The position numbers were made by a program, and so were the translations under genes. From the IMG/VR virus record IMGVR_UViG_3300049595_000896, positions 1 through 56,418 of that record: DNA of 56,418 nucleotides. One strand, 5' to 3'. The stretch comes from a virus. This document shows, in pieces, positions 572-56,418 of the stretch (its first letter is position 1; every line of letters starts with the position of its first letter). The notes below the pieces were generated by a model. The model was not told the origin of the DNA. It saw only the letters and a list, made by a program, of their open reading frames with translations, and ran no database searches.

Positions 572-646
572 GTTTGTGTTTTTGTAGTTGTACCACAGGG
601 CCGGGGGGTTATAGCTCGCGACTAACGTGCGCGTAACTCGTACTAA

Positions 647-1322
647 TGTAAAGTATATAGTATAGTGTAAAGTATGTAAAGTTATAGCCCTAGAAACTTT
701 AATCTATTTCGCCTAACTTTAATCTATCTCGGGGCTTTACGCCATAACTTTAATTTAGATCGTAGACTTTACACGATTAATGTAAAGATCCACGGAAAGC
801 TGAGGAAAACCAAGGCTATATATATAGTTAAGTTAATAATATAATATAAATAAGGTAAAAAAGGTACGATTTTTTACTAAGGTTCATACCATTTTTGCGA
901 ATTCCCCTACACTTTACAGGGGCTATACCCCCTAATCCCACCCCCATGGCCTCTGACCCCCACATTATCTCAAAAAACCTACCTTATTTAGATTGTTGGC
1001 CATAACCCATTGATTCCACATCACTTTTTTGATCTATTAAAGTTACCTCGTCACGATATTTTTGCCTCGTCCCCTAGATTATATGTAAAGTTAAGCGAAT
1101 TAATTCGGTATGTTCTGGTTTTGTCCCTATATTTTTTCGTGTTACATGCAACAACACTGCATGTAAACGCGTTTTATACAGTCGTTTGAGACTGTAAAGT
1201 GATAATTGTTTCAATGTAATGTTAAGTTGTAAACTTACCTCCCGTCCCCTTTACACGCTACGCTTAACACATGACGCTAGCCTGTGGCGCTTATGTACAG
1301 TTATCAAGAAATAAACTTTACA
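647..1322. repeat. Iteron-like TGTAAAGT repeat cluster
   Basis: Exact TGTAAAGT occurs at 647, 666, 675, 1084 and 1193, and its complement ACTTTACA at 766, 911 and 1315. One-mismatch copies are TGTAAAGA at 781 and CCTTTACA at 1248. A further exact copy lies at 55442-55449, just beyond the join. By chance an 8-mer should appear only one or two times in the whole genome on both strands. A second family, (T/A)AACTTTAATCTAT, occurs at 694-707 and 714-727, with a variant at 745-760 and an inverted variant at 1032-1045. Confidence 0.85.
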
Positions 1323-1394
1323 TTCCCGGGGTGCGACATTCTGCCACATTGCATCCTGTCCCGGTCTGTGGCAGCATCTTGGGGTCGGGGCGAA

Positions 1395-1427
1395 TTGCGT
1401 CCAGATTTAAGTTCTTATAGAACTTAA
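1395..1427 (+). promoter_or_regulatory. Palindromic operator overlapping a weak promoter
   Basis: TTAAGTTCT (1407-1415), TAT, AGAACTTAA (1419-1427) is a perfect 9-bp inverted repeat 36 nt before the ATG at 1464. A weak promoter can be drawn over it: TTGCGT (1395-1400), 17 nt, TAGAAC (1418-1423). The palindrome would then cover the -10 box, as a repressor site often does. The palindrome is certain; the promoter match is modest. The XRE-like protein at 13881 is one possible ligand. Confidence 0.5.
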
Positions 1428-1463
1428 CATTAACCAGTGAATGCCCTATGGCAGGAGGTTCCT

Positions 1464-2350: not shown

Positions 2351-3463
2351 ATGCATGCTTCACTTCTCTCGCAGACCCTTCAGGCTCTGCATAAAATTAA
2401 TCGCTCACTGTGCATCGAAGGGCCACCCGGTGGTGGCAAAACCAGCGTGGTGCGTCAGACTGCGCGCCTTATGGCGGGGTGCACTAACGACAGCGTTCAC
2501 CCTGACGAGCACATGGTCGGTTCGATCACGGTCTACACGGGCCAGACGCAGGCGTTTGGGTACAGTGAGGTCCACCTGCCGACCAAGACTGTCGATGACT
2601 TCGGCATACCGGACATGCTTAACAAGGGTGAGACTATCGCCTACCGCCTGTTCGAGTGGTTCCCTGCTATACACCGCACGGATATCCCTGAGCGTGGCAT
2701 ACTGTGCTTCGACGACCGTAACCAAGCGAGCGCTGACATCCAGAAGGTTCTGGCCAATATCATTCAGGCTAGGACGCTGCATGGCGTCATGCTTAAGCCC
2801 GGCTGGCAGGTGGTCTCTACGGGTAACAGGCAGTCGGACAGGGCGGGTGCTGGCCGTGTGCTCAGCCACCTGCGTAACCGCGAGTCTGTGGTCAACTTCG
2901 AGACGAGCCTCAAGGACTGGATCGCCTATGCTGAGGGTGCTGGGGTGCACCCTTACGTTGTGAGTTTCCTGCGGTTCAGGCCGGATCTGCTGCATGCCTT
3001 TGACCCTGACAAGCCCGCCTCGCCTACCCCTAGGTCATGGGCTGAGGGCGTTGCGCCTCTTATCGGCGTAGTGCCTGACGATGCTGAGCACGAGTTGTTC
3101 TGCGGCGCTGTAGGCGATGGCGCTGCGGCTGAGTTCGTGGGGTTCCTGCGTATCGCTAGGAGCCTGACTAGCCCGGACGTTATCCTCAAGGACCCTGACA
3201 ACTCGCCTATCCCCACTGACACGGCTACGCTCTACGCCCTTACGGGTGCGCTTGCTCACCGTGTGGTCAAGGCTCCGACCCTCCCTGACGCGCAGGTTAT
3301 GGCTTCGGCTGTGCTGCGTTACGTGACGCGCTTTGCGTCGATGGGTCGTGCTGAGTTCGGCGTCATTGCTGTATCCAGCATGCTTAAGCGCAGTGATCTC
3401 AAGGCTGCGTCCTTCCCCGGCCTGCCTGAGTTCTTCATGAAGAACCAGTCGGTCATGTTCTGA
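2351..3463 (+). CDS. MoxR-type AAA+ ATPase
   Basis: The product has 370 residues. ATG 2351 is chosen because AAGGAG lies 9 nt upstream; a longer in-frame extension would overlap the gene at 2110. Walker A is GPPGGGKTS (residues 24-32), Walker B ends in FDD (D121, D122), a sensor-1 STGN lies at 156-159, and a PTPRSW segment follows. This is the MoxR branch of AAA+ ATPases, which usually act as chaperone-like remodelers with a VWA-domain partner. Such a partner is encoded two genes downstream (4380-5528), with a DUF3150-like protein between. The role in a phage is not established; options are remodeling of a host or phage complex during replication or takeover. Confidence 0.9.
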   Translation: MHASLLSQTLQALHKINRSLCIEGPPGGGKTSVVRQTARLMAGCTNDSVHPDEHMVGSITVYTGQTQAFGYSEVHLPTKTVDDFGIPDMLNKGETIAYRLFEWFPAIHRTDIPERGILCFDDRNQASADIQKVLANIIQARTLHGVMLKPGWQVVSTGNRQSDRAGAGRVLSHLRNRESVVNFETSLKDWIAYAEGAGVHPYVVSFLRFRPDLLHAFDPDKPASPTPRSWAEGVAPLIGVVPDDAEHELFCGAVGDGAAAEFVGFLRIARSLTSPDVILKDPDNSPIPTDTATLYALTGALAHRVVKAPTLPDAQVMASAVLRYVTRFASMGRAEFGVIAVSSMLKRSDLKAASFPGLPEFFMKNQSVMF

Positions 3464-6483: not shown

Positions 6484-6990
6484 ATGGTTGCGTCTGGCCC
6501 GATCATTCAACAAGCTATGACACGGGTCAGACGATCCTTCCCTTACTTTACAGACGATATGCTCAGGCTAAAGGACCGGTCCAAGCGGACGGTCATACCA
6601 CGTCAATACATGTGGTATCTATTGAGATTATACGGGCGAAGTTATCCTTGGATCGCTCGCAACACCGGAGGGTGGGACCACACGACTATTATGTGGGGCG
6701 TCAAGGCGCATGTGCGTGCGATGCAGAACCCTGAGAGCAGCCTCTATAAAACAGGTGTCAGATTGCAGAACACTACAGGTTTACTGGAAGAGATTGAGCG
6801 GCTGGAGCGTGAGATTAAACAACTCAGCGACACAGCGGAGGACATGCAGCGTCAGCGTCTGGCGTTGGTATATCAACTTAATGATCTGAGGGAGAAAGCT
6901 TATGGATTATCGAGTGAAGAACCGTCTCGCAGACAAACTCATGAGGGCGTTGATCGCGCTCATGCACCATCGCACCAACCCAAAGGCTAG
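6484..6990 (+). CDS. DnaA domain IV-like DNA-binding protein with coiled coil
   Basis: The product has 168 residues. Residues 34-80 match the C-terminal DNA-binding domain of the initiator DnaA: a PRQ segment (39-41), a helix-turn-helix, and GGWDHTTIM (62-70), equivalent to the DnaA signature GGRDHTTV. There is no AAA+ ATPase domain, so it cannot be a complete initiator. Residues about 97-140 form a Leu/Glu/Arg-rich coiled coil, suggesting a dimer. It could bind DnaA-box-like sites, recruit or compete with host DnaA, or act at the phage origin; it lies just before the DNA polymerase gene. Its last 89 nt overlap the next gene in another frame. Confidence 0.8.
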   Translation: MVASGPIIQQAMTRVRRSFPYFTDDMLRLKDRSKRTVIPRQYMWYLLRLYGRSYPWIARNTGGWDHTTIMWGVKAHVRAMQNPESSLYKTGVRLQNTTGLLEEIERLEREIKQLSDTAEDMQRQRLALVYQLNDLREKAYGLSSEEPSRRQTHEGVDRAHAPSHQPKG

Positions 6991-12447: not shown

Positions 12448-12839
12448 CATTGACAGTTGATGGCGTCATTGAGGGGTACCTCAAACTGCGCGCCAAGAAG
12501 CAGGCCATAGAGGCCGAAACAAAAGAAAGACTATCTGTTATAGAAGCTAACATGGATAAACTTGAAGCATGGCTGAAACTTAAGGCGGAAGAGACAGGAG
12601 TAACCAGCTTCAAGACAGACAACGGCACAGCTTTCCTGACCACAGTCGACTTCGCCAACGTGGCAGACTGGGACGCCGTGCTTGCACATATCAAAACTAA
12701 CGGAGCCTACGACATGCTGGAGAAGCGTGTCAGCAAGATGGCAGTGCGTGCGTACATCGAGATGCACCGCGCCGTTCCTCCCGGAATTAACTACGGTACG
12801 AAACTAGAAGTAAGCGTCCGCAAACCTGCGGCATCATGA
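12444..12839 (+). CDS. Conserved phage coiled-coil protein of the recombination block
   Basis: The product has 131 residues, starting by ATGA overlap after AAAGGGG. An N-terminal coiled coil (about 1-50) is followed by a small mixed domain with ETGVTSFKTDNGTAF and LEKRVSKMAVRAYIE segments, ending in a VPPGINY motif. Proteins of this pattern, loosely like phage Gp157-type proteins, are often found next to ssDNA-binding or recombination genes. Function is unknown. Confidence 0.65.
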   Translation: MTLTVDGVIEGYLKLRAKKQAIEAETKERLSVIEANMDKLEAWLKLKAEETGVTSFKTDNGTAFLTTVDFANVADWDAVLAHIKTNGAYDMLEKRVSKMAVRAYIEMHRAVPPGINYGTKLEVSVRKPAAS

Positions 12840-12853
12840 CAGAAAGGCATAAC

Positions 12854-13888
12854 ATGACCAATCTTATTCCGGCTAACGTCAACATCCCCGCCCATCTGGC
12901 CAACAGGATCGGCGCACCCTCATCCCTGAGCAAGGCGCTGAGCGGTGGCATCGGTGGCAGCACAGACATCATCCCCAAGATCAGTATCAAAGGCTCGCGG
13001 TTCCGCATTGTGGAAGGCAAGACCGAGACTGTACTGAACACGTTGACTCTTGATGTCATCATCGTGGGTGCTAACCCCCGCCTGTCCAAGACCTACTACG
13101 CTGCACAGTGGTCGCCTGAGAGCGAGCCTGCCTCGCCTGACTGCTGGTCCATGGACGGCATCCGTCCTCATCCTGACGCAGCTAACCCGCAGCATGACAT
13201 GTGTCAGGGCTGCCCCCAGAATGCATGGGGCTCGAAGGTGACTGCACAGGGCAAGGAGATCAAAGCCTGCTCTGACAAGAAGCGTCTCGCTGTGGTCGCA
13301 GCGGATGACCCCGGTGGTCCGGTCTACCTGCTGGAAGTTACACCGGCTGCGTTGCAGGGACTGGGCAAGTACCAGAAGGAACTGTCATCCCGTGGCATTC
13401 CTGTAGAGATCGTGCGTACAGTGGTTGGCTTTGATACGGACGCCAGTTTCCCCAAGCTTAACTTCAAGTTTGGCGGGTTCATCAACGAAGAAGCGCAGAA
13501 CCTGACTGCTCCTCTTCTGGATAGCGAGGAGGTAATGAATGTCACAGGACAAGCCGAAGGGTCAACGCATCAGGACGCAGGACTTCCCAGCCCGGCCCCG
13601 GTCCTTCCTGCTCCCCCGCCTCCGCCGCCCCCGCCTCCGCCGCCCGCACCCGCTCAAGCTAAGAGAGGATTTGCTTCTCAGGCCAGTGTGCTGGCTCCTC
13701 CTGCCAATCTTTCTGTGGTTCGCCCTAGTCCAGCTAGCACTGGCGATAGCGGCAATAGTGATGGTGGGGTTGGCGCTGCTGTAAAACGCGGGCGTCCGGC
13801 CAAGGTCGCGACCCCTGAGCCTCAGGCCAGTTCGTCTCTGGTTGATGATATCACATCTCTGCTGGCGGGGATGGCGAGCGATGACTAA
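12854..13888 (+). CDS. Putative ssDNA-binding protein with zinc-finger and acidic tail
   Basis: The product has 344 residues from ATG 12854, which has AAAGG at 6 nt; ATG 12836 overlaps the previous stop (ATGA) but has no ribosome site. The N-terminal region is strand-rich. Four cysteines (CWSMDG, CQGC, CSDKKR) could bind zinc. A run of prolines around residue 255 leads into a disordered region, and the protein ends DDITSLLAGMASDD, an acidic tip like that of SSB proteins. Position between helicase and primase genes supports an SSB role; homology alone does not prove it. The next gene overlaps by 8 nt. Confidence 0.6.
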   Translation: MTNLIPANVNIPAHLANRIGAPSSLSKALSGGIGGSTDIIPKISIKGSRFRIVEGKTETVLNTLTLDVIIVGANPRLSKTYYAAQWSPESEPASPDCWSMDGIRPHPDAANPQHDMCQGCPQNAWGSKVTAQGKEIKACSDKKRLAVVAADDPGGPVYLLEVTPAALQGLGKYQKELSSRGIPVEIVRTVVGFDTDASFPKLNFKFGGFINEEAQNLTAPLLDSEEVMNVTGQAEGSTHQDAGLPSPAPVLPAPPPPPPPPPPPAPAQAKRGFASQASVLAPPANLSVVRPSPASTGDSGNSDGGVGAAVKRGRPAKVATPEPQASSSLVDDITSLLAGMASDD

Positions 13889-14165
13889 GTTCGAGCACGC
13901 TCCTGTCGACTTCAATAAAGTAGAAAGCTTGCGCAGGCATATGCTTCTCAACACTTCGGATATGGCGAAGCTGCTGGGAGTAAGCCGGGTGACTTACTAC
14001 AACTGGGTCAGAGGGAAACCTGTCAGGAAAAACAATGTGATACAGGTGAAGAACACTCTTCGTGGTCTTCTCAATGTGATGACTACTCACAGCTGGCCAC
14101 AGCCACACGTGATAGCCATGGAGCCTAATCAAAGGCTCGAAAAGTTACTTGAGCTTCTTAAATAA
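13881..14165 (+). CDS. XRE/Cro-like helix-turn-helix regulator
   Basis: The product has 94 residues; ATG 13881 overlaps the previous stop by 8 nt. Residues about 25-45 (TSDMAKLLGVSRVTYYNWVRG) form a classic Cro/CI-type helix-turn-helix, followed by a helical tail. It is the only clear repressor-like protein in the genome. It may act on the palindrome at 1407-1427 or on the hairpin sequence directly downstream at 14177-14201; both are speculation. Confidence 0.8.
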   Translation: MTKFEHAPVDFNKVESLRRHMLLNTSDMAKLLGVSRVTYYNWVRGKPVRKNNVIQVKNTLRGLLNVMTTHSWPQPHVIAMEPNQRLEKLLELLK

Positions 14166-14215: not shown

Positions 14216-17080
14216 ATGGACACGCTGGAGTTCTTCCGGCGAGTTCTTCCGTCTTCTGGGTATTACTGTGCCTTCAATGTGGACAACAGGCAGCACGGTT
14301 TTTTCTCAACAGTCGAAGAACTGGCTAGCATCTCCGTTCGCATGGACGAGATGGGGAGAAATACCTACTACGCGATATCATCTTTTATAGAAAAGAAGGG
14401 GAGGAAGCAAGCAAATGTCAAAGCAACCAAGGTCATCGCCCTCGATGTAGATGTCGGCAAGTACGACGCAGCCGGGGAGCTACGCAATAGTTATGCCACG
14501 TTGCAGGATGCAGGCGTAGCTGTCGCCCAGTTCATAACCAAGACAGGACTGCCAGATCCGCTGATGGTGTTCAGCGGCAATGGTCTGCACATGTACTGGG
14601 TAATGACACGCGACCTGACGCCCGAGGAGTGGCAGCCTCTGGCGTCTGCGCTCAAGATACTCGCCGCAAGGCATATCATAATCGACCCGGCAGTGACAGA
14701 GGACAGCGCCCGTGTGCTGCGTGCTGTCGGCATAACCAACAGGAACAGCGGCAAGAAGGCTCAGTTATTACGCGATGCGTCAGACGTCGACCCACTCGAC
14801 TTCGCCCGGGCTCTCGGCGCTTCAGGTGTAGCCCCCCCACCGCAGGCACAACCGTCCCGCAAGACTACACTACTGGATAACTTGGCTGTAAAGACTGACC
14901 ACCCGCTGGGTGTTGCGTCCGTCATCATGTCCAAATGCCAGCAGGTTAAGGACGCAGTCTCTAAACCAGAGAGCGTGCCCGAGCCCCTGTGGTATGCTCT
15001 TATAGGCGTGGCGGCGCACTGCGAGAACCCCGAACAGACAGCCATAGAGTGGAGCAAGGGGCACCCCGAGTTCTCTCATGTGGAGACTCTGCGTAAGCTG
15101 GAGCAGTGGAAGAAGAACGCCACCGGCCCGACACTCTGCACCAAGTTCGAGAGCGAGAACCCTGACGGATGTAAAAGTTGCAGGCTGAAGGGGCGTATCG
15201 CATCGCCTGTCCATACAGGGCAGACCTATAAAGAAGTTGACCAGAGCGCAGCACCCGACCCCATAGCGCAGGCAGTCCCGCTTCCCAAGCCGTTCAAGCG
15301 CACGGCGCAGGGCATCAAGATGGTTATCGACGGCGTCGACACAGACGTATGTAGCTTCGACATCTACCCTACAAGCTATGGCAAGGACGAGATGCTGGGC
15401 TATGAAGTTGCGCGGTTTATGTGGGACAGATCCCATGTAGGATGGCAACCGCTTGTACTCAGGCAGGCGCTACTGACTGATGGGCACAGGGAGTTTGCTA
15501 CTGCACTGGCGGATCAGGGTATTATATTCCAGCACAAGAAGCTGACAGAAAGTTTCCAGTATATGCTGCGGTCCTATCTAGATAGCTTAAAGAAAACTAC
15601 CCGTATGACGAACCTGTATTCGTCAATGGGCTGGAAAGAAGACTTCTCCCAGTTTGTCATGGGCGACTCTGTAATACGTCTTGACGAGAGTGGGTCCGCA
15701 CAGGAAGAGCAGATCACTTTATCTGCACCCATGCAACGCCAAGGCTCTGAGTTGTGGGAGACCAAGGGCAGCCTTAAGGCGCAGGTGGACGGGCTCGCAG
15801 TACTCGAACGCGCAGATATGCCATGGCACATGTTCGCCATAGGCGTCATGCTAAGCGCCCCGCTCTACGAGTTCACCGGTCTCAAGGGGCTGACTGTCTC
15901 GCTCAACGGACCCACTGGCGGCGGCAAAACCCTGACGCAGTTGTGGGGCCAGAGCCTTTGGGGCAACCCGGACAAGCTGCACTTCACTTCTAAGTTCACA
16001 ATCAACGCGCTGTTTAACCGTATGTCGCTCTACCGCAACATGCCGATGACTGTAGACGAAGCGACTATGATGAACCCCAAAGACATAGGGGACTTCCTGT
16101 ACTCAGTCACGCAGGGCGCAGACAAGATCCGCCTTAACCGCAACACTGAAGAGCGCGACAGCAAGCCTTACTTCATACCTGTTGTACTCAGTACCAACAC
16201 AAGCATCGCATCGATGCTGATCTCTGCGGGCTCAGAGACAGAAGCCCAGATGGCCAGACTATTGGAGATAAACATACCATCGCATCCGCTGTTCTCCCGG
16301 GACAGCAACGCAGGCAAGATGATCTACAACCATATACATAATAACTACGGACACATAGGCCGGGCGTTTGTGTCCAAGCTGCTGGAGCTAGGACCGCAGT
16401 CCCTCAAGGACATGATTAACCGGCACTATGATCTGTTCAAAAAGAAATACAAAGCCAGCTTTGGCGGGCAGGAGAGATACTGGGAGGCGGCGGTTGTGCT
16501 TGCCGACATGGCCTTCCACCTTGCCCACAGCTGGGGCCTTGTGCCGTTCAAGTACGAACGCTGCATAGAGTGGATGCTCATACAACTGGGAGCGATACGC
16601 AAGGCTGTGGCCGACATCAAGCGCGACACGTTTGACCTGATCTCCGAGTACGTCAACGACCATGCGTCTGTGCTTGTGACCGTTATGCATACAGCAGGGA
16701 TGAAGCCGCAGGCAGACCACCTGCGCATGCCCCGGGAGGACATACGTATAAGGCTGGACCTCTACAGGAAGTCGCTTAACGACAGGTTCGACAAGGGTAC
16801 CATGCTCATGGACCGCGTCCACTTCCGTCGTTGGCTCGCAGAGAAGCGGTACGATTACCGTACTGTACTGCAGGACCTCAACGCTGAGAATGTCATTGCC
16901 AGTCCGAAGAGTGGCAAGGCTTATCTTGGCAAAGACACAGTCGCCAAGACTGCACAGACCTACGTTATAGGAGTGAACCTCAACCATCCGCGCCTTGTCG
17001 GTATCATCGACGACACCGAAGCATCCATCATGGACCTGACGCTAGGTCAGCTTCACTCTGTGCCTTCGTCAAGTCCGTAG
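14216..17080 (+). CDS. PrimPol-helicase fusion (replicative primase/helicase)
   Basis: The product has 954 residues from ATG 14216, preceded by AAAGGG. The N-terminal archaeo-eukaryotic-type primase domain has LDVDVG (D77, D79), SGNGLHMYW (H125) and a VTEDSARVLRAVG segment. A cysteine-containing linker (CTKFESENPDGCKSC) follows. The C-terminal half is a DUF927-like ATPase with Walker A GPTGGGKT (K571) and Walker B VDEAT (D614, E615). It should prime and unwind DNA for the family A polymerase. Its last 28 nt overlap the end of the opposite-strand polyvalent gene. Confidence 0.9.
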   Translation: MDTLEFFRRVLPSSGYYCAFNVDNRQHGFFSTVEELASISVRMDEMGRNTYYAISSFIEKKGRKQANVKATKVIALDVDVGKYDAAGELRNSYATLQDAGVAVAQFITKTGLPDPLMVFSGNGLHMYWVMTRDLTPEEWQPLASALKILAARHIIIDPAVTEDSARVLRAVGITNRNSGKKAQLLRDASDVDPLDFARALGASGVAPPPQAQPSRKTTLLDNLAVKTDHPLGVASVIMSKCQQVKDAVSKPESVPEPLWYALIGVAAHCENPEQTAIEWSKGHPEFSHVETLRKLEQWKKNATGPTLCTKFESENPDGCKSCRLKGRIASPVHTGQTYKEVDQSAAPDPIAQAVPLPKPFKRTAQGIKMVIDGVDTDVCSFDIYPTSYGKDEMLGYEVARFMWDRSHVGWQPLVLRQALLTDGHREFATALADQGIIFQHKKLTESFQYMLRSYLDSLKKTTRMTNLYSSMGWKEDFSQFVMGDSVIRLDESGSAQEEQITLSAPMQRQGSELWETKGSLKAQVDGLAVLERADMPWHMFAIGVMLSAPLYEFTGLKGLTVSLNGPTGGGKTLTQLWGQSLWGNPDKLHFTSKFTINALFNRMSLYRNMPMTVDEATMMNPKDIGDFLYSVTQGADKIRLNRNTEERDSKPYFIPVVLSTNTSIASMLISAGSETEAQMARLLEINIPSHPLFSRDSNAGKMIYNHIHNNYGHIGRAFVSKLLELGPQSLKDMINRHYDLFKKKYKASFGGQERYWEAAVVLADMAFHLAHSWGLVPFKYERCIEWMLIQLGAIRKAVADIKRDTFDLISEYVNDHASVLVTVMHTAGMKPQADHLRMPREDIRIRLDLYRKSLNDRFDKGTMLMDRVHFRRWLAEKRYDYRTVLQDLNAENVIASPKSGKAYLGKDTVAKTAQTYVIGVNLNHPRLVGIIDDTEASIMDLTLGQLHSVPSSSP

Positions 17081-20000
17081 ATGTTTATCAGGTCTTCGAC
17101 CATACCCTTGGAAGCCTCGGGGGCGACCTTGAGATAACGTGCGGCGGCGGGTGTCGCAGCCTCCTTGGCTGACTTGATTGCGTTCCTCTCGAAGTCACGG
17201 ATGAAGAACTCCGTGCCTCTGGCTCCCTCGTTGAACCTGCGTACATCCTCCAGAGTTTCGCGCATACGGGCATAGTCTTTCTTGAGGTAAGCCTGCACGT
17301 ATCTGGAACGGAAGTCGGCTTTGAGTGCCTTGGCGTAGTCTGCTGCATATGTGCTAAGCCGGATCGCTGTGTTGCTATTCGCTGCTTCTGTTGGATAGAA
17401 GCCAAGCATGCGGCCAATGATGACCGTCATTGAGACATCGTTTGAAACGACCCTACCTTTCGCGTCCGTTATACGTCCGTCACTGAGATAGGTAAGTCCA
17501 TCCGCGAACCCTTTGATGCCAGACGATGGAGCGTTACGCAGGATCTCGGGCAAGGTAGCTTTCTCATACCCAACACCCAGTTGAGCAGCCCCCCAGTGCG
17601 CCAGCTGGAAGCTTGTATCAAGCGTACCGTACATGGCGGAGAAGACAGGACCAGCAAGCTCCATAAGTTCGCGGCCAGTGTCTGCGCCTGCGCGGGCTAT
17701 GCCCATTGCAGGGACGGGGGCCCCCATGCCTGTCTTGCTTGCGATATCCAGCCCAGCAAGGTTGGCGAGCCCGTTCATACCAACTGCACCAAGCCCCGGT
17801 GCTATTCCTTCCAGCATTTCCAGAGCCGCAGCTTCAATGCTGCCGAGCGGGATATCAAAGAACTGCGCAAGCGTGTCGATAAGATCAAACAAGTTCTCTG
17901 CAAACGGAAGACCTTTGAACCCAGCCAGTATCAGCACAGCCGCGAGATAATACATCTTCCCTTTGAGGGGCAGGGCGGCAACCATCTGCACCGTTATGAC
18001 CACGATCATCTTGTACATAAAGATGAACTGCGTGAAGTGGTTACGGAAAAGTTCCGGTCTGTTGTAAAGGCTGTAGTCGCCGTTAGTTTTATCGACTGCT
18101 GTTCCAGCCTGCCTGTAGACATCCTTGAACGCCTCGCTCTGGAGAAGCGCCAGTTTATTCTTTGCGGTAAATTCGGCTTCAGGTATTCCAGCAGCAACAG
18201 CGCGTTTTCTATACAGTCTATACGCTGCAAGAGCGGTTGCTCTGCGGCTGAGCTGCTCAGTATAAGTGAACATACCCATCCAAACTTTTTCGGCTTTAGC
18301 TTGGATGTTTGACTTGACGCCACCGCGTGCGGTCTGAAGAAGCGTGTTGGTCAGCGCCGGCTGGAGGTTGCCTTCTTCTGTTTGGTTGAGAAGGAACACA
18401 GCTTCATCAAACGTAAGTCCGTATTTGCCGTACTCATTTTTGTCGATCATCTGGCGCAGGGACTCTGCGTCATTGAAGACAAAATCCCTCAGCTGGTTCA
18501 GAGCTTGGATAACTTCCTGAGACGCCGCAGTCAGGCCGAACCCACCACCGTAACCACGCTGGGCGTTATGAGTGCCAAGGTACGGGATGACGTTGAATAC
18601 GATAGTTACGAGGTTGAGCAGGGCAGACGAGAAATTCATACCCAGTTGCAGCAGGACTGCAAAGTTCTTGAGCGGAGCCGCCGTCTCTGTCAGGAACCCC
18701 TGTGTGCTGTCTATGATATTAGTAGACTGCGCGTAGAAGGTAAGCAGTCTCTTGGCTTCGTCCCGATACCGCTCACCATATCCTTTGGTCTCTAGTTTCT
18801 CATTGCCGATCTTGATTATCTCGGGAGCGTTGGGCTTCCTGTCCGCCATGTGTACATAGCGGTAAGCATATTCAGCATAACGCTGAGCCGCAATTGTTAC
18901 CAGTGCTTGGTTGCCACTCGCCTTTGCGTCTTCTAGTTCCCGCTCCAGTCGCTTGAGCAGTTCCCTGTCGCCCCTCCAGTTCTTGTCGTTGGACATGATC
19001 TCGTCGGTGCGGAACGAGTACCGGTTCTTGGATGCAACATGTGCCCCGGTCTGCGTGTCAATACTCACGCTCTGTATAATATCCGGGTCCCAGCCAACCG
19101 TACCAGAACGCAGAAGAACGCGGCGGATGGCGTCTTCCATACCCGTCAGCGCCTGTATGACGTTGACTTGCTCCTGTGCAGTGAGGTTGACGTTGATCTT
19201 GGTCAGCGCCCGCAGGAAGTCGCTGAAGTCTATGGCATGACCAAGCGGCGGGTTCTTGGCCGTCTCGGATGTAGTGACACGGAACTTCACCGTTACAGAT
19301 TTCTCTGAGTAGTTATCCCGAGCATAGTCATCAGTCGGGAGCAGGAACTCCCGGTTCTCAAAAACAGACAGCCGGGAAGCAATCATGGTTGCTTCGTCTT
19401 CGTCCGCCGCCATGTAGAACGGAAGTTGTGACCTGATGCCATCACCAATAGTAACGACCCTGCCTGTGTCAGGATCGTACGCTTCCAGCCTGACATTCCA
19501 TTTGCCCCTGCGCAGCAGCGGCACGTAACCCATACCAATAGTGCGCTTGGCGTTCTGTTCCGCCAGTACCAATGTCTGCTCTTCAGCAGCCAAGTTGGTG
19601 AAGATAGGTTTGATGAACCCTATCTGATGACTTTTTGTGATCCCAAGCTGGTTCATCTCGGGAATCTTGTCGACGATATGTTTGAACGCAGGATCTTTAT
19701 AGTATTTGGCAGCAGGCGTATCCGCTGTGCCTTCCGCCCAGTCCTTGACCTTAGCCTTGTCATGCAAGGCCATCATCACTTCGACAACAAACTCCATACC
19801 CCTGCCGATAGTCTTGGCGGTGGGCAGTGAAACAACTTCGAGTTTGCCCTTGTCGTTCTCGGCGAGATGGATAAGCTCCATGTACTTGTCGCGCAGATCG
19901 TAGAAGAACTTGAGCTGGTCCGGGGTCAACGGCGCTTTGGACGCCGTCTGTATCCTTGCGAACTTGTCGTTAGTTTCTTTTATGAGTTCGAGATACCGCT

Positions 20001-23000
20001 CGTACTTGGACTGAAGTATGTCCTTGGTCTTCTCCTGCTCGACTGCAAGCAGTTCGTTGAAGATAATCCATTCCTTGCTATCTTCAGTAAGGCCCGGTAT
20101 CGCCTGCATTTTGAGAGCGGTCTGCGGTACTTTAAGCTGAGCAGCTTCCGCAGAGACATTTACCTCAAAGCCCTTCTTGAACATCTCTATGTCAGGCTTG
20201 GCCATGCCAAGGACTTCGTCCAAGTTCTTTGTGTTGAACACGAAGAAGCCTTGAGAGATGTCCCCTATCTCCCCGATCTTGTCGAGCTTACCCTGCTCTG
20301 CTTTATCCGTAAGACGGTTCTGCCTGTAGAGCGTGAAGAACGCCGCCATCTTGCCGGCCAGCAGCCGCTGTTCGTTCGTGGCGAACGCCGCAGACTGAGT
20401 CTTCTTTGTAAGGTTGTTGTACTTCTGAAGAAGCCGCTGCGTAAAGGACGACTGCTCTTTGAATAGATTATATAGCTCATTAATACCTTGGCTAAGGTCC
20501 CCGATACTGTCGAGAGACTGGACTTTTTCCAGTATCTTGGACGTCCCTTTCCCAAGGAAGCGCAACAGCTGGCGACTGGACGTGACCGCAGCAGAGGCCG
20601 AGCGGGGCAAGCGTTTGGACAGCGTGTTGTCCGCAGCCACTTCCGTCTTGAGATCCACAGCCCCAGCGATGGCAGCCGAGACGGAGCTAGGCTGTGGGCT
20701 AGCAGAAAAGCGACCAATAACAGCCTCAGTCGCCAGTTTCCGCATGTTCTGCTCAAGTATAGCCGGGCTGATGAATGTCGTGTCGCCGGTCCTGAGATAG
20801 CGTCCGGCTTGCCTTATGAAATAGCGCGCTGTCTCATCGCCGAACTTAATGCCGATCTTGTTGAGCGCATCCTTGATGGCATTCCACACTCTGAACAGTA
20901 TGTTGTTGTCGAGTTCTGCTGCATAGTCGCTTAGCACTTCTTCCGCAGCTTCTATCAGGTTCATGTTGAACCCGGCAGGCATTTTCGTGGCTTCGTAGAA
21001 ATTCTTATTCTTCGCAGTCAGGAACGCATCGCGAGCCTTGTCAGTAAAGTCTTTGTATATGGCTGCGTGACGCAGGACTTTTCTTTGGAAGCTCTGGTTT
21101 TCGTTAAGCAGTTTAAACAGAACGTCATTAAGTTCCTTGTCTGTCATGATTGAACGCAAGCCGAAGTGGCCCAGCGTTTCATGGGCCAGAACAAACTTCA
21201 GTTCCTGCTCTGTCTTTATCTGGTCCGTGAGGATGATGATCTCGTTGCCAAACGAGTATCCAGCAAAGGGCGTCGTGGCGAACGCGCCATCGGTACGCGC
21301 CGCATCAGCGCGCCTGTAGAGATCCGGGTTGGCGCGACGGAGAGCTTCGAGGTTCTTGTATACGTGGGCTGTTGGTTTGACATGCAGTTTGGCAAGGATT
21401 TTATTGACCGTATTTTTGGACTTGATCCAGTCAACAGCGGTCTTGATCTCACGTCCATCCGTGCGGATGAAACTTCCTTTGCTTGCGTTGGCTATTGCTT
21501 TTTCGAGCGCTTTGTATTCAAGCTTCCCATCTTTTTGCTGGAAAGAACTAAGCGGGCTTCCTAGGAACGATTCGCCTCCATCGATAGCAGGATCATAACT
21601 ATCTATCGCATCGTTTATATAATCTTTTACTGCGTTTGATCTTTTACTACCAGTTAGCTCTGGCATTACAGAACTGTTGTACTGAATCTCCAGAGCGCGG
21701 GCGAGAAAATCTATCGCACGTTTTGGTTTGCCAGACGTTAGATCTATAGTATCATCCTGCACCGGTTGGTTTTCAGGATCAGCCGGTCGTACTTTGGACG
21801 CTTCTTCGCTTACCCCAGCAGCTACACCACTTTTTTTATCTGCTTCAGGTATGTTTGTTACTCTTATACCTTCGCGTATGCCCGCCAGAAGTCCGTGCAA
21901 TTTAGCATACGTATACCAAGGACGTTCCCGTCCCTTAAATTTCCCCGTGTTAGCCCGGGCTTGTATAGATTCTCTTGCTGGCGCATTGAGCTTAATTAAG
22001 AATGCTGCGTTGAACAACTTGCGCTGTTGTTCGTTTAGTATCAGAGTATTCAGCCGATCAATAACAGCTTCTCTCTCAGCTTTCTTTTTGTCGGTAGCGT
22101 CCCAAGTTGTATCGAAGAACGCAGCGTCTACAATCTTCAGCGCGGCATTAGCAAACTGCTCGCTACCCGCTATCGTGGCGGTAAGTGTTGGGTTAGTGGC
22201 GTGTGCAACAAGCGCTTCTTGCGCCTGCTCTAAAGTCTTGATCTGTCGAACAGGCGCTTCTTTGGGAACCCCTTGATCCTTAGCGGGTCCTGTTTCGGCG
22301 GCGCCCTTTCGGGCAGCTGGCCCGGCTCGCCTTCCGCCAGCAGTTGCTCCAGCAGCTGCGGGTTGTTCTGCTCCAGCCACCGGCGCTGGGCCTCGCTCTT
22401 TAGGGACAAGGGCTGCCTCTCTCTTTCTAAACGCGGCGTATTCATTTTTTAATTGGCTGACAAGTTCTTCAAACTCTTGTTTCAAGACATTAGTGTCTTC
22501 ACCAGCGCTGGCGCGGGCTGCAAGATTTTCCAAGTCTGTCTTGAGTTTCTTAAGCGTATTGGAGACCGCGTATTTTCTATTGCCGACAGCTGCTATGACA
22601 TTTTGCGCAATGCTACGGATAGCAGCCGCAGGGTTTTTATCAAACAGGCGGACAGCTTTATCAGAATCCTCAATGGCGAATTGCAGTCGTTCATTTATAG
22701 CTAGTACGGACGTTTGATATTCTACATAACGCAGCCCTGCTTCTCGTCCGACTCTGACAGCGCCATCGTTTTCATCTACTGCGGCACCCTTAGGTTTTTC
22801 CTTTAGTGCTTCTCCCTTAGGCGCAGCAGCTTCAGGCGCAGCAGGTTTAGCCGCAGCTTCTTTACGAATCTTGGTTACCCCTCCACCGCCACCACCGGGA
22901 GGATTAGGATCGATGTCTTGCGATGCTGCAAATTGATCGAGCATACCGGCAAGCGCATCATAACTACTAAGTATTTCTTTTATAACCTTATTATAGGCAG

Positions 23001-25902
23001 GAAGTTGCATGCCATTATTTTTAAAGTCGCTTACTAGATCATAGAGTTTGCTAGTAGGTAATAGATATTCACGTAATCTATATTCAGCGCTTCCAATCTT
23101 ACGCTCGCTAAGCTTAAAAATTTCTCGCTCATAATCGGTTAGCGTTTTATCATTTTCCAGTATATTAAATAGGTTCTGGCTTAAAGAACTAGAATGATTT
23201 ATTATGGCTTCTAAAGCCGTCATAACATTGTTTACTTTTGTTTTTACAGTTTTTTTCCTAAAATTTATTTTCTTTTTAATAATTGCGCCTTTAATTAGTT
23301 CACGTTCTTTATTGCCTTCTGCTATATATTTACGAAGAACAGAATTTACACCAGTCTCCCACGAGAGTTTTGCTTTTGGATCTGTTTCGCTGGTAACTCT
23401 TTTCATGAGATACGCGAGCGGATTTTTTTGATAATTTGGTGTACGTACAATATCTTCTTCAAGAAAGTCTTCGTAAGTCAGATCGGGCTCTTGCTCCCGT
23501 GCTTTTAGATATGCTTCATAAGACGCATTAGATTGAGCCGCCGCTTCAGGCGCAGCAGCTTCAGGCGCAGCAGCTTCAGGCGCAGCAGCTTCAGGCGCAG
23601 CAGCTTCAGGCGCAGGTCGCCGACGCGATCTACCGCGAGCTTTTATTTCTTCTGCACCCGGCGCGGTAGGTTGAACTTCAGGTGTAGGTTCAGGTGCAGC
23701 AGGAGGCGGTTCATCCACACCCCGACGCCCGCGCCGAAGAATGTAAGGACTAACTCGGGGCGGTGCACCGGCAGGAGTACCGAATGGTTGCTGGTAGCTG
23801 AACATATCCAGCTGTCCGCCCCTGAGCGAGCTAGGAATAGGAGGGGATACGGGCGGCGCAGGAGCAACGGGTGTAGCAGGAGCTTGTCCGAGCCCCTCTG
23901 GAGTAAACATCTCCATCTGTACGGGAGCAGCGGGAGCAGCGGGAGCAGCGGGAGCAACGGTGGGTACACCGGTTATATCAAATCCAGATCCCGGCTGACG
24001 CAATCCAGCGGCAGGACGTGGGAAGTTATCAGGGCCGAACGGAGGACCGAGGTCCAGTTCGCGCTGGACGCTGTAATCGACAGGCGGCGCAATAGGCGCA
24101 GTAGGCGCAACAGTTGCAGCAGGAGTTCCAACTTCTAACTGAGTCAGAAGATTTCTAAGGTCCTGAGGTGATTGGATTTCACCCCGGTCAAATGCTTGTT
24201 TTATAATGTTCCATTTAGGCTCTTTTTTGAACGCGGAGCTTTTATTGGGCCCATTAGTTAACGTGTCATACCAACCTTTGTAAAAGTTTTCCGATATTGC
24301 TTGCCCCATACCCCCAAACATATCGGAAATACCGGCACCCCTGCCCCTGCCTCTACGCGCAGCAGGTGGCTGGTTAAACAGATCTAGTTGTTCTGGTCCT
24401 GTGCGGGGTGCAGCAGGAGCCTGCCCAAGATCTGTCTCGGGGAACAACTCCATTTGTCCCGGCTTAGTTCCGAAAGCGTCTGCTGAGAAAAGTTCCCCCT
24501 GTGTGCCGGCAGGTGCAGGCAGCAGTAACGGAGCAGCAGGCGCAGCTTCTGGCGCAGCAGGAGTTTCTTGTTGCGTAGTTGACTTAAGTAGATCGACTTT
24601 CTGAAGCGCGTTGATTCCGCCGCCCGCAATGCCACCAAACGCAGCGCCTGCAGCAAACGAGTTTATCAGACGCTTGGCGTACTCATCGGAGTAGTCGGCG
24701 CCGGCAACCTGTTCGCCAGCCGCCATGAGGATAGCTTCCTGACCACCTTCGGTCGCGCCACCGCCCAATCCACCGATGGCAACACCTGACGCAACGCGCC
24801 GCCGCATAGACGGTTTTGTAGCTACAGAAGCAGGGTTGAGGATTTTGCTAAACGCAAAGAACTCGGGCAGCGCTTCAAGCGCGCCGTATGGCAAGCCGTA
24901 AGCCAGAGCAGCCATCTTGGCGTCTACATCATTTGCATCAACACCCTGCTGGCGCAGTTCGTTGTACACATCCGACGCGCCGATCCGGTAACTGTTGACC
25001 GCGCTAGCCGCCAAGGCGCCGTAATACCCGGCTTTTCCTTTAACTACAGGCGCAAGCGCATTCATCGTTGCAGTATCGCCCAATTTCTTGGCAGCTTGAT
25101 ACTTTGCGACATCCTCGGCAAAAGCTTTTTTGGCTTCCTTGGACAGAAGCTGCTTTGCCGTAGCCCTTGCACCAATACCTATCCCAGCACCAACACCACC
25201 AGTCGCAAGTGATTCAATGATGGACGGAGTGAATTGTCCGAGGGTAGCAACAAGAAACTCGCCTACGTCCCCAATGTCCTGAATACCGGTAAACTCTCTT
25301 TGAAACGGAGCCAGTTGCTCAATACGCTGTTGCGCACCCTGAACAATATCAGATCCGAGTTTCTCAGCCCCCACCAATTGCAGGCCGGACCCCACCAACT
25401 GCATAGATCCTTGCACGCCGAGGTCTACGTTCCGCCCAAATAAATCAAAAATCCCCGGTTCTTTGATAGTTTTCAGTAGGGCGTTATATCCATCTTCGCT
25501 TAGCGGCACCCAGTCTTGCACTTCATCGCGTGGCAACGGAGTAGGCGGACGGTTAAGATACTGTTCAGATTCAAGTGCGCTGGCAAAATCATCCTTGCCA
25601 AAGACAAAGCCGTTGACGCCTACCTTTCCAGTCGACGGACTATACCCAAGCTGCGGACCATAAGGGATTTGATAGGCAGGTTGTTCTTCCACAGGTGTAT
25701 CGTAACTCTGCCTGAGGTTCTGCAACTCAAGCCGCGCATTTCCAACTTGCTGACGCAATCCAACCAATGGATCAACTGGCGAAGGGGCAAGACCCCCCAA
25801 CCCGCCGCGAGCCTCAGGCGCTTGCACCCTAGCTGGTACGAAAATGTCTTTAAGTTTCTGGTCGAGTGTAGGGGTGGGTGGGTACCTGCCGGGAGGAAGC
25901 AT
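17053..25902 (-). CDS. Giant polyvalent virion protein with metallopeptidase motif
   Basis: The product has 2949 residues, about 16 percent of the genome. The ATG (25902) directly follows the TAA of the ejection protein upstream. The N-terminus has long Gly/Ala-rich helical, membrane-like segments (about 200-430), then Pro/Ala-rich low complexity with EAAAP repeats (near 760-790), an AT-rich lysine-rich insert (about 790-985), and a zinc-peptidase-like HETLGHFGLR (H1574, E1575, H1579) in the middle. Late hydrophobic segments lie near 2430 and 2625-2660, with a helical C-terminus. This is the layout of large polyvalent proteins, which are packaged and injected with phage DNA and carry several effector or protection domains. 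Position after a transglycosylase ejection protein supports injection. Confidence 0.85.
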   Translation of the reverse strand: MLPPGRYPPTPTLDQKLKDIFVPARVQAPEARGGLGGLAPSPVDPLVGLRQQVGNARLELQNLRQSYDTPVEEQPAYQIPYGPQLGYSPSTGKVGVNGFVFGKDDFASALESEQYLNRPPTPLPRDEVQDWVPLSEDGYNALLKTIKEPGIFDLFGRNVDLGVQGSMQLVGSGLQLVGAEKLGSDIVQGAQQRIEQLAPFQREFTGIQDIGDVGEFLVATLGQFTPSIIESLATGGVGAGIGIGARATAKQLLSKEAKKAFAEDVAKYQAAKKLGDTATMNALAPVVKGKAGYYGALAASAVNSYRIGASDVYNELRQQGVDANDVDAKMAALAYGLPYGALEALPEFFAFSKILNPASVATKPSMRRRVASGVAIGGLGGGATEGGQEAILMAAGEQVAGADYSDEYAKRLINSFAAGAAFGGIAGGGINALQKVDLLKSTTQQETPAAPEAAPAAPLLLPAPAGTQGELFSADAFGTKPGQMELFPETDLGQAPAAPRTGPEQLDLFNQPPAARRGRGRGAGISDMFGGMGQAISENFYKGWYDTLTNGPNKSSAFKKEPKWNIIKQAFDRGEIQSPQDLRNLLTQLEVGTPAATVAPTAPIAPPVDYSVQRELDLGPPFGPDNFPRPAAGLRQPGSGFDITGVPTVAPAAPAAPAAPVQMEMFTPEGLGQAPATPVAPAPPVSPPIPSSLRGGQLDMFSYQQPFGTPAGAPPRVSPYILRRGRRGVDEPPPAAPEPTPEVQPTAPGAEEIKARGRSRRRPAPEAAAPEAAAPEAAAPEAAAPEAAAQSNASYEAYLKAREQEPDLTYEDFLEEDIVRTPNYQKNPLAYLMKRVTSETDPKAKLSWETGVNSVLRKYIAEGNKERELIKGAIIKKKINFRKKTVKTKVNNVMTALEAIINHSSSLSQNLFNILENDKTLTDYEREIFKLSERKIGSAEYRLREYLLPTSKLYDLVSDFKNNGMQLPAYNKVIKEILSSYDALAGMLDQFAASQDIDPNPPGGGGGGVTKIRKEAAAKPAAPEAAAPKGEALKEKPKGAAVDENDGAVRVGREAGLRYVEYQTSVLAINERLQFAIEDSDKAVRLFDKNPAAAIRSIAQNVIAAVGNRKYAVSNTLKKLKTDLENLAARASAGEDTNVLKQEFEELVSQLKNEYAAFRKREAALVPKERGPAPVAGAEQPAAAGATAGGRRAGPAARKGAAETGPAKDQGVPKEAPVRQIKTLEQAQEALVAHATNPTLTATIAGSEQFANAALKIVDAAFFDTTWDATDKKKAEREAVIDRLNTLILNEQQRKLFNAAFLIKLNAPARESIQARANTGKFKGRERPWYTYAKLHGLLAGIREGIRVTNIPEADKKSGVAAGVSEEASKVRPADPENQPVQDDTIDLTSGKPKRAIDFLARALEIQYNSSVMPELTGSKRSNAVKDYINDAIDSYDPAIDGGESFLGSPLSSFQQKDGKLEYKALEKAIANASKGSFIRTDGREIKTAVDWIKSKNTVNKILAKLHVKPTAHVYKNLEALRRANPDLYRRADAARTDGAFATTPFAGYSFGNEIIILTDQIKTEQELKFVLAHETLGHFGLRSIMTDKELNDVLFKLLNENQSFQRKVLRHAAIYKDFTDKARDAFLTAKNKNFYEATKMPAGFNMNLIEAAEEVLSDYAAELDNNILFRVWNAIKDALNKIGIKFGDETARYFIRQAGRYLRTGDTTFISPAILEQNMRKLATEAVIGRFSASPQPSSVSAAIAGAVDLKTEVAADNTLSKRLPRSASAAVTSSRQLLRFLGKGTSKILEKVQSLDSIGDLSQGINELYNLFKEQSSFTQRLLQKYNNLTKKTQSAAFATNEQRLLAGKMAAFFTLYRQNRLTDKAEQGKLDKIGEIGDISQGFFVFNTKNLDEVLGMAKPDIEMFKKGFEVNVSAEAAQLKVPQTALKMQAIPGLTEDSKEWIIFNELLAVEQEKTKDILQSKYERYLELIKETNDKFARIQTASKAPLTPDQLKFFYDLRDKYMELIHLAENDKGKLEVVSLPTAKTIGRGMEFVVEVMMALHDKAKVKDWAEGTADTPAAKYYKDPAFKHIVDKIPEMNQLGITKSHQIGFIKPIFTNLAAEEQTLVLAEQNAKRTIGMGYVPLLRRGKWNVRLEAYDPDTGRVVTIGDGIRSQLPFYMAADEDEATMIASRLSVFENREFLLPTDDYARDNYSEKSVTVKFRVTTSETAKNPPLGHAIDFSDFLRALTKINVNLTAQEQVNVIQALTGMEDAIRRVLLRSGTVGWDPDIIQSVSIDTQTGAHVASKNRYSFRTDEIMSNDKNWRGDRELLKRLERELEDAKASGNQALVTIAAQRYAEYAYRYVHMADRKPNAPEIIKIGNEKLETKGYGERYRDEAKRLLTFYAQSTNIIDSTQGFLTETAAPLKNFAVLLQLGMNFSSALLNLVTIVFNVIPYLGTHNAQRGYGGGFGLTAASQEVIQALNQLRDFVFNDAESLRQMIDKNEYGKYGLTFDEAVFLLNQTEEGNLQPALTNTLLQTARGGVKSNIQAKAEKVWMGMFTYTEQLSRRATALAAYRLYRKRAVAAGIPEAEFTAKNKLALLQSEAFKDVYRQAGTAVDKTNGDYSLYNRPELFRNHFTQFIFMYKMIVVITVQMVAALPLKGKMYYLAAVLILAGFKGLPFAENLFDLIDTLAQFFDIPLGSIEAAALEMLEGIAPGLGAVGMNGLANLAGLDIASKTGMGAPVPAMGIARAGADTGRELMELAGPVFSAMYGTLDTSFQLAHWGAAQLGVGYEKATLPEILRNAPSSGIKGFADGLTYLSDGRITDAKGRVVSNDVSMTVIIGRMLGFYPTEAANSNTAIRLSTYAADYAKALKADFRSRYVQAYLKKDYARMRETLEDVRRFNEGARGTEFFIRDFERNAIKSAKEAATPAAARYLKVAPEASKGMVEDLINIYGLDEGTE
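23543..23617 (-). repeat. 15-bp tandem repeats encoding EAAAP units
   Basis: The unit GCTTCAGGCGCAGCA (plus strand) is repeated in tandem at 23543, 23558, 23573 and 23588, with a fifth partial copy to about 23615. On the minus strand it encodes Glu-Ala-Ala-Ala-Pro units, a rigid linker inside the polyvalent protein. Near-identical copies suggest recent slippage expansion, so copy number may vary. A smaller 9-bp GGGAGCAGC repeat lies near 23930-23960. Confidence 0.9.
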
Positions 25903-54885: not shown

Positions 54886-55360
54886 CTTCCAGCGCCCAGC
54901 CAGAGGAACTTGGCGGGCTAGGCGCATTGTCTATGATCGTCATGGGCAGGTCCTGCCCACCTAGGTTGATGCTGATACGCACCCCTCCAGACCCAGCCTC
55001 GCCTGTATCTCCCTTGGGCTCCAGTCCGCCCCACTTGACCGTAGACTTGATAAGGTCCGCTTTTACAGCCGGGGAGACCGAGGGGTCGTGGATAAGCAGC
55101 CAAGATGTGGTGAGCAGTTCTTCGGCCTGAGCGCGGGCTTTGAGGCGGAACGTCATGCCCTTGGATACGATCTCTTCCCTGTAACTCTCCACGCGCTTGA
55201 GGAACACAGGGTCAGCGTTGAACGTCAGTAGATCCGCAGGGGCCATGGAGTGGCGCTTAAGTATGTCAGCCACGGGCTCCCCGCTGCCTTCCAGACAGAG
55301 GGCTATGTCAAACGCAAGGCGGTCTGACCACTTGGTGTGGAGGATTGCTGATCTATCCAT
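54878..55360 (-). CDS. terS: Terminase small subunit
   Basis: The product has 160 residues. KWSDRLAFDIALCLEGSGEPVADILKRH and a helical middle match small terminases of related podoviruses; the C-terminal tail is Gly/Pro/Ser-rich. It precedes the large subunit in the operon and would select phage DNA for packaging. Confidence 0.8.
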   Translation of the reverse strand: MDRSAILHTKWSDRLAFDIALCLEGSGEPVADILKRHSMAPADLLTFNADPVFLKRVESYREEIVSKGMTFRLKARAQAEELLTTSWLLIHDPSVSPAVKADLIKSTVKWGGLEPKGDTGEAGSGGVRISINLGGQDLPMTIIDNAPSPPSSSGWALEDV

Positions 55361-55594
55361 GCGTTAAGGATAGCGGGGTTTAAGAAACCGTCAAGAGGCA
55401 AGTGGCTGGGGTAGGGAGGGGGTAGGAGCAGGGGTGAGTAAACTTTACATTTTGGATTTTTGGGTTGTGTTTTGTGCGGTTTACCATGTTGGGGGGAGGC
55501 TAGAACTCACCGTCCGACTGCCCCCCACCCTCTCGCCTCATGCACAAGCGCTGCCGAGCACGTTATGGCTTAGAAACTCGAACAAAACATGCGC
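55361..55594. other. Intergenic region between divergent arms
   Basis: This gap separates terS (minus) and the first plus-strand cassette. It holds one copy of the ACTTTACA repeat (55442-55449) like those in the control region at 647-1322, and a G-rich purine stretch. I see no gene and no convincing minus-strand promoter here, although one must serve the terminase genes. Confidence 0.5.
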
Positions 55595-55623
55595 TTGACA
55601 AATCGAATTAGATATGCCATTGT
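55595..55623 (+). promoter_or_regulatory. Sigma70-like promoter A
   Basis: TTGACA (55595-55600), 17 nt, CATTGT (55618-55623) with an extended TG (55615-55616). Spacer starts AATCGAATT, identical to promoter B at 56067. It lies about 57 nt before the ATG at 55680, with a GGGG/CCCC hairpin and the element GATGTTTGACAT (55655-55666) in the leader. Confidence 0.65.
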
Positions 55624-55679
55624 TGATTTGTCGATGGGGATACCCCCCTCGGCAGATGTTTGACATGAAAGGTTACGCG

Positions 55680-55883
55680 ATGAAATACGTCGTGGGTTAC
55701 GTCGACGCCGACGGCCAGTGGGTTACGTGGTCCTACTGTGATGTCGAGACGATGGCGCTAGTGCTCGAAGCCTGCATGGTGAAAGACCTAGAGGTTGGCC
55801 TGATGCGGACTTGGGAAATACGAGAGCGACCCAAGCGCGGAATAGCTGACTGGCTGGTAGAAGACCGCCGGCTGAAACTCTAG
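55680..55883 (+). CDS. Small conserved phage protein, paralog of 317-529
   Basis: The product has 67 residues. ATG 55680 is preceded by AAAGG at 7 nt; an upstream ATG at 55614 lies inside promoter A and is rejected. N-terminal KYVVGYVDADGQWVTWSY and C-terminal ERPKRGIADWLVEDRRLKL mirror the protein at 317. Acidic middle. Function is unknown; early expression from promoter A is expected. Confidence 0.8.
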   Translation: MKYVVGYVDADGQWVTWSYCDVETMALVLEACMVKDLEVGLMRTWEIRERPKRGIADWLVEDRRLKL

Positions 55884-55900
55884 ACCTAGACTGAGACTGA

Positions 55901-55931
55901 GAGGCCCCGGGAAACCGGGGTCTCTTTTTTT
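55901..55931 (+). terminator. Intrinsic terminator with GAAA tetraloop
   Basis: GAGGCCCCGG-GAAA-CCGGGGTCTC (55901-55924) followed by seven T. Same core as the terminator at 545-571. Both are followed by a T-rich tract and then GGCCGGGGGGTTA, so the duplication extends beyond the hairpin. Confidence 0.9.
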
Positions 55932-56066
55932 GTCTGTTTTTCTTTTGTGTAAGTAGTCTCATGTGGCCGGGGGGTTAGAGATCGACGCCCGCCAAACGGT
56001 CGACGGACGCCACGGGCACGCCCGCTTTCGGTCACGTTATAGCTCGCTTTTCGCGTTTTTACCCGA
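55932..56066. other. Spacer between the two early cassettes
   Basis: No gene is visible. It holds GGCCGGGGGGTTAGAG (from about 55965), also found after the other terminator near 599, and a GTTATAGCTCGC copy (56036) that matches 609-620. It marks the boundary of the duplicated cassette. Confidence 0.55.
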
Positions 56067-56223: not shown

Positions 56224-56418
56224 ATGGCGAAAGCCAAAAGGGTTAAGAGCGTTAAACTTTCTGCCGCTGAAGCTTCCACGTGGACCAACATTCCAGCGGA
56301 ATCGTTCGCCTCAGAAAAGGGCCAGATGGCCCTTCTCAAGGCGGCTCAGCTCATAGCGATGGAGACAGAGGTCAAAAACCTCTTCCGCGCTCTGGTCGAG
56401 CCACGGGTTGGTTTCCCG
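56224..56418 (+). CDS. Small basic phage protein, 5' part (continues at window start)
   Basis: ATG 56224 has AAGGAG at about 7 nt. The frame continues through the terminal repeat and ends at 247, giving 104 residues. The Lys-rich start MAKAKRVKSVKLSAAEAS suggests nucleic-acid or membrane contact, but no family is recognised. See the 1-247 entry. Confidence 0.8.
   Translation, partial: MAKAKRVKSVKLSAAEASTWTNIPAESFASEKGQMALLKAAQLIAMETEVKNLFRALVEPRVGFP
56292..56418. repeat. Right copy of 127-bp terminal direct repeat
   Basis: Identical to bases 1-127. Removing one copy gives a closed circle of 56,291 bp with the small gene intact. Confidence 0.95.

Follow-up and report, generated by a model that had tools for sequence, protein, structure and literature searches.

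The AT-rich gap of 0.9 kb that stands ahead of the replication module of an uncultured tailed phage with a circular map is almost certainly a conserved compound control region in the broad sense, and its sequence points to an origin of replication to which the early promoter region is fused, a reading to which we give a probability of about 0.6. Since dozens of related phages repeat the layout, the gap is most likely the start site of DNA copying and the place where the early genes are switched on. Rather than being alternatives, the origin and the early control region appear to coincide in a single piece of DNA. The sequence-only reading had offered an origin or a master control region; the control region stands, but the cumulative GC skew that it proposed as a check gives the origin no support. 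The skew minimum lies at 55,040, about 2 kb from the repeat array, and coincides with the switch in gene direction. Because skew follows gene orientation, it is no evidence for an origin.

Genome setting and the A-box array

The window, that is, the whole stretch of DNA analyzed here, is IMG/VR record IMGVR_UViG_3300049595_000896 (56,418 nt). It carries an exact direct repeat of 127 bp at both ends (1-127 and 56292-56418), an assembly sign of a circular genome. Since these terminal repeats are identical and a contig (L090) with 100% identity over 4825 bases runs across the record-end junction, the genome is circular, with a circle of 56,291 bp. Rightward early and replication genes (ATPase, HNH, family-A DNA polymerase, exonuclease, helicase, and DUF927 primase-helicase) extend from about 1.4 to 17 kb and leftward virion genes from 17 to 55 kb, with the terminase at the far end. 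The first rightward early gene (1464-1784, + strand) encodes a protein of 106 aa with no family, and the AAA ATPase (phrog_1297; 2351-3463, + strand) is the syntenic anchor that was used to locate the region in relatives. Elsewhere, a leftward protein of 2949 aa (17053-25902) has a C-terminal match only, to phrog_11358 (unknown function), and the product of 12836-13888, a conserved protein with invariant cysteines present in 51 loci, is at a guess the single-strand DNA-binding protein (SSB) of the phage.

The first 12 kb has no nucleotide-level match among phage records, and searches of these records for both near and distant nucleotide similarity brought up none that is truly related to the gap. 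The best full-length polymerase matches among cultured phages were Rhizobium phage RHph_TM3_14A (37%) and Pseudomonas phages such as KPP25 (35%). Bacterial genomes were scanned as well; the relatives that turned up were all distant or fragmentary and lacked the array, and so they point to no host. The gap has 39% GC against 52.6% for the genome and holds no long open reading frame from 529 to 1437/1464 except an antisense one ending at 596, which agrees with its earlier description as non-coding and AT-rich. A search of positions 1-2400 for RNA families found none.

Eight exact TGTAAAGT/ACTTTACA words, here called A boxes, lie within 676 bp (647-1322). Five are on the + strand, reading TGTAAAGT, at 647-654, 666-673, 675-682, 1084-1091, and 1193-1200, and three are on the − strand, reading ACTTTACA, at 766-773, 911-918, and 1315-1322; the count thus reproduces the eight copies in both orientations that had been read from the letters. 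The whole window holds 10 copies on both strands, unevenly distributed, where 1.5 are expected, as had been estimated (one or two by chance), and where the largest count in 100 shuffles was 4. In 2000 dinucleotide shuffles of the region, this word never exceeded two copies, and any 8-mer at all reached six copies in just one. The two copies outside the array lie at 6545, inside the gene of a DnaA-domain protein, and at 55442; the former had been overlooked.

The array resembles an iteron region in being a cluster of repeats above chance in non-coding DNA with an AT-rich unwinding element adjoining it (816-875). Direct repeats at regular helical spacing were not found among the A boxes, which show no preferred distance and stand in both orientations. 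The label iteron-rich is therefore only loose: it suits the abundance of the repeats but not the spacing of the A boxes, which differs from that of the 9-bp tandem B repeats of relatives described below. Regular pairing of A boxes was rejected, the gapless palindrome ACTTTACATGTAAAGT being only modestly in excess (6 pairs in 4 phages). Canonical DnaA boxes (TTWTNCACA) are absent from the array and not enriched in relatives (9 against 6.9), contrary to what a DnaA-dependent oriC would show.

Further elements are arranged around the boxes. A terminator-like hairpin with a T-run (543-566, + strand) closes the upstream operon of small genes and forms the left boundary of the region; by eye, a terminator followed by a G-rich element stands at the equivalent position in L010, L017, L121, and L148. 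At the left edge, element D (591-621, + strand; consensus CCATACGTCGGGGGGTTATAGCTCGC) is a single oriented element that scores 23.1 bits and is the sole match of at least 15 bits in the genome. Three AACTTTAATCTA/AACTTTAATTTA repeats at 695, 715, and 746 (695-762, + strand) are half A box and half B box. By nearest-neighbor energies, 816-875 is the weakest 60-bp duplex genome-wide and thus a candidate unwinding core; the weakest windows of 100, 150, and 300 bp, which start at 816, 744, and 634, also all fall in the array. To the right follow a degenerate B box (985-1001, − strand; TATTTAGATTGTTGGCC on the + strand) and the only copy in the window of motif C of the relatives (1003-1015, − strand), an exact match, AATCAATGGGTTA, to the IHF consensus WATCAANNNNTTR. 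A candidate early promoter, TTGCAT-N17-CAGCAT (1349-1377, + strand), lies inside a conserved inverted repeat, CTGCCACA...TGTGGCAG. Its hexamers are poor matches, weak by sequence, and a promoter scan reported no site on the + strand. A second early promoter candidate, TTGACA-N17-CATTGT, occurs at 55595-55623 with the inverted repeat GACAAATC...GATTTGTC.

The copy at 55442 had been taken to place the boxes on both flanks of the early cassettes. It is real, but as the genome is circular it lies just about 1.5 kb left of the array, in a separate element F (55442-55503, + strand; A box plus GGATTTTTGGGTTGTGTTTTGTGCGGTTTACCATGTTGGGGGG) that adjoins the terminase genes. In relatives, this strongly conserved element of about 60 bp (55 loci, 46 distinct) stands between the terminase genes on one side and the first rightward gene on the other; usually it has an A box, which may face either way, and then TTTTTGGGTCTTGTTATGAGAGGTTTACTTATATGGGGGG. 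It is possibly a packaging site or a late promoter, and its A box is as compatible with a transcription regulator as with an initiator. The G-rich tail of element F resembles element D, and the small gene, terminator, and D-type element are duplicated at 55614-55984 and 317-621 (BLAST match, 77.6% identical).

Conservation of the layout in related phages

Relatives, mostly metagenome contigs, were found through the ATPase anchor at 111 loci, which reduce to 65 when redundancy in the region is removed. Regions were chosen by lowest GC near the ATPase, which favors AT-rich motifs, and the shuffles used for comparison retain that composition. Since many motifs were tried, the strength of the case lies in enrichment over independent loci and in conserved order, not in single matches in the window. 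The word ACTTTACA occurs in 41 of the 65 regions, where chance would give 4.5, and its copies number 136 against 4.7 expected; ACTTGACA occurs in 37 of 65, where chance would give 3.1. The site of ACTTTACA in these phages is the AT-rich gap preceding the early genes, and box words stand at this syntenic place even in relatives whose DNA polymerases are about 53 to 57% identical. Conservation in relatives, on which the sequence-only reading had staked its proposal, was thus borne out.

L089 is the closest relative (ATPase 84% identical, about 78% in DNA), and its sequence can be aligned to the region. All three AACTTTAATCTA-type repeats are present in it, together with an almost identical AT block near 818-880 that overlaps the core and an identical TTTAGATTGTTGG box. 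It also keeps the IHF-consensus site and the inverted repeat with the promoter, which at the homologous place reads TGGACA-N17-CAGTCT. Exact A boxes stand at homologous places for only two to three of the eight: those at 666 and 1084 are kept, and that at 766 has one mismatch. This indicates that what is preserved is the class of word, with turnover of the individual copies.

Weight matrices built from the relatives' regions gave five elements, A to E. Element A is AACTT[T/G]ACA, and element B, approximately AAC[A/T]ATCTAA, is repeated in tandem at exactly 9 bp (43 pairs). Element C is YAANNNNTTGATW, which we take to be the reverse complement of the IHF consensus WATCAANNNNTTR. In 48 regions selected for holding an A box, 47 exact IHF-consensus sites were found in 34, against 4.2 ± 2.2 in shuffles (largest, 10), so that a conserved IHF consensus, as looked for in an IHF-assisted origin, is present in the region. 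Element D has 48 sites in 44 regions, nearly all single and on the + strand. Element E is promoter-like and precedes the first gene; its model was refined from one seed site and its consensus is rough, and the promoter claim therefore rests on a spacing test. In the usual order, the terminator is followed by D and the scattered A boxes; next come tandem pairs of B on either side of an AT core, those on one side inverted so as to face those on the other, and finally C, E, and the first gene.

In the spacing test, CTTGAC[AG] on the strand facing the early genes was followed by NANNNT at a spacer of 17 in 29 of 80 cases, other spacers giving 2 to 8, and the relatives' promoter pattern is TTGAC[AG]-N17-NANNNT. 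For ACTTTACA, no peak of distance to NANNNT was seen. Some ACTTGACA copies are thus −35 hexamers; the ACTTTACA words belong to a different kind of element.

Candidate box-binding proteins and competing readings

From these data we infer that the gap acts as an origin, that IHF binds it, that the promoter of the window is active, and which protein binds the boxes. A phage DNA-binding protein, most likely an XRE-like helix-turn-helix (HTH) protein, would bind the scattered ACTTTACA boxes, and host IHF would bend the DNA at 1003-1015, next to the B box. This would strain the AT-rich core at about 816-875, which would open and allow the DUF927 primase-helicase and the family-A polymerase to be loaded. 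A sigma70-type promoter at the right end would start the rightward early operon. Since the −35 of the relatives is part of an A-like box, ACTTGACA, the box-binding protein could couple early transcription to replication.

The XRE-like protein (94 aa; 13881-14165, + strand) is encoded between the genes of the SSB-like protein and the DUF927 primase-helicase. It has BLAST matches in 23 loci, the window included, and strong scores in 17 of 40 records in a further search, and it is found in every box-carrying phage checked whose record holds replication genes. Among box-carrying records longer than 45 kb, G009 alone lacks the gene, and it is uninformative because it is a fragment ending in the helicase. 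The structural model (pLDDT 90) resembles the lambda-type repressor HTH proteins P22 c2 and 434 (best Foldseek E value, 0.05). A box and XRE-like protein follow one clade, so their association is no proof of binding, and this protein as binder of the A boxes is a candidate that we hold to be possible, short of probable. In several more distant phages, an HTH gene also lies between the SSB-like and primase genes. L085 has other repeats in the gap, and L056 has an array, of the word AATTATCC, but no HTH gene at that place. An unrelated small protein replaces the HTH protein between the SSB-like and DUF927 genes there (L056, 16240-16540; also in L060, L058, and L055).

The second candidate is the DnaA domain-IV-like protein (6484-6990, + strand), with the A box at 6545 inside its gene; its DnaA-like label withstood a profile search (PF08299, 39.9 bits against a cut-off of 31.5). 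Were it the phage initiator, the ACTTTACA words would be its modified DnaA boxes. It retains GGxDHTT, presumably the motif typical of the recognition helix in DnaA. TNNACA is common to the ACTTTACA words and the DnaA box TTATNCACA, both kinds of box are irregularly placed and face either way, and the protein was also detected in the box-carrying L021 and L022. Its distribution nevertheless makes this reading improbable: it was detected in 5 of 20 records, profile searches did not find it in the box-carrying G001, G003, and G011 (L010, L018, and L037), and its BLAST match came from L089 only. The XRE-like protein is accordingly the better candidate binder than this patchily present one. Far less probable still is that the ACTTTACA words are merely the −35 hexamers (TTTACA) of many sigma70 promoters. 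TTTACA and TTGACA are both −35 like, and the promoter scan gave three weak leftward matches with TTTACA at −35. Yet promoter-like sites are just as numerous in the region as expected by chance, and ACTTTACA keeps no preferred distance to NANNNT where CTTGAC[AG] in relatives peaks sharply at 17 bp; with no −10 hexamer peak at about 17 bp, a sigma70 promoter array was rejected.

A more serious contender, although an unlikely one, is transcriptional control only, with the origin elsewhere. The boxes would then serve as operators through which a phage regulator, such as the XRE-like protein in the role of a repressor or an early-late switch, controls both the early promoter (1349-1377) and the divergent region (55.4 to 55.6 kb). 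The overlap of A-like boxes with the early-promoter −35 in many relatives, the retention of an A box in element F, and the resemblance of the XRE-like model to the P22 c2 and 434 repressors, at weak E values, are all consistent with it. However, eight boxes over 700 bp, a melting core that is the minimum of the genome, and adjoining IHF sites exceed the needs of a promoter, as do the 9-bp tandem B repeats in inverted pairs of the relatives, and the other weakest 300-bp stretch of the genome (23014) is inside the 2949-aa gene. We therefore retain an origin fused to the early promoter region as the preferred reading.

Comparison with known origins

IHF sites are present in the origins of E. coli, pSC101, R6K, and P1 (PMC4980987). 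With the iteron origins of the plasmids pSC101, R6K, and P1 (PMC4980987), the gap shares a compact non-coding AT-rich core, repeated short boxes of the initiator type, and an IHF site, and on paper the array would work like such IHF-using origins (PMC4980987). In contrast to those iterons, the phage boxes are 8- to 9-mers with irregular spacing and both orientations, no Rep-type initiator was seen among the phage genes examined, and canonical DnaA boxes are not enriched. Scattered bidirectional 9-mers, a weak duplex core, and an IHF site are likewise shared with bacterial oriC, whose 13-mers in the unwinding element have a counterpart in the tandem AT-rich short repeats of the phage relatives. 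The box AACTT[T/G]ACA, however, is not a DnaA box, and the phage differs in its replisome of family-A polymerase and DUF927 primase-helicase and in the link to an early phage promoter.

A lambda-type ori is also a phage origin with clade-specific short repeats adjoining replication genes. The iterons of the lambda O protein are regular and lie inside the O gene, whereas here the repeats precede the entire early operon. Pseudomonas phage KPP25 and Rhizobium phage RHph_TM3_14A share the AT-rich gap ahead of the early genes and the ATPase, but their box sequences differ and neither has a ACTTTACA array. The gap of RHph_TM3_14A keeps TAACCCATTGATT (IHF consensus), and that of KPP25 is non-coding with other repeats.

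These comparisons leave room for a bolder and rather doubtful proposal, an undescribed class of origin in a large group of uncultured phages, in which tandem 9-mers in inverted arrangement would frame an AT core bent by IHF, and a small XRE-like HTH protein would both fire the origin and control the early promoter. Scaffold and place would stay in distant branches while the box varies: ACTTTACA here, TGTGTCA in L085, AATTATCC in L056, and AATGTTCT in L078.

For phages known mainly as metagenome contigs, a group that has no close match among the phage records searched, the analysis provides a candidate origin and specifies both its sites and a candidate protein to bind them. If the reading is true, origin and early promoter would be joined in one complex bent by a host factor, with a box sequence that is exchangeable between branches, and the layout would offer a sequence signature for finding origins in related contigs.
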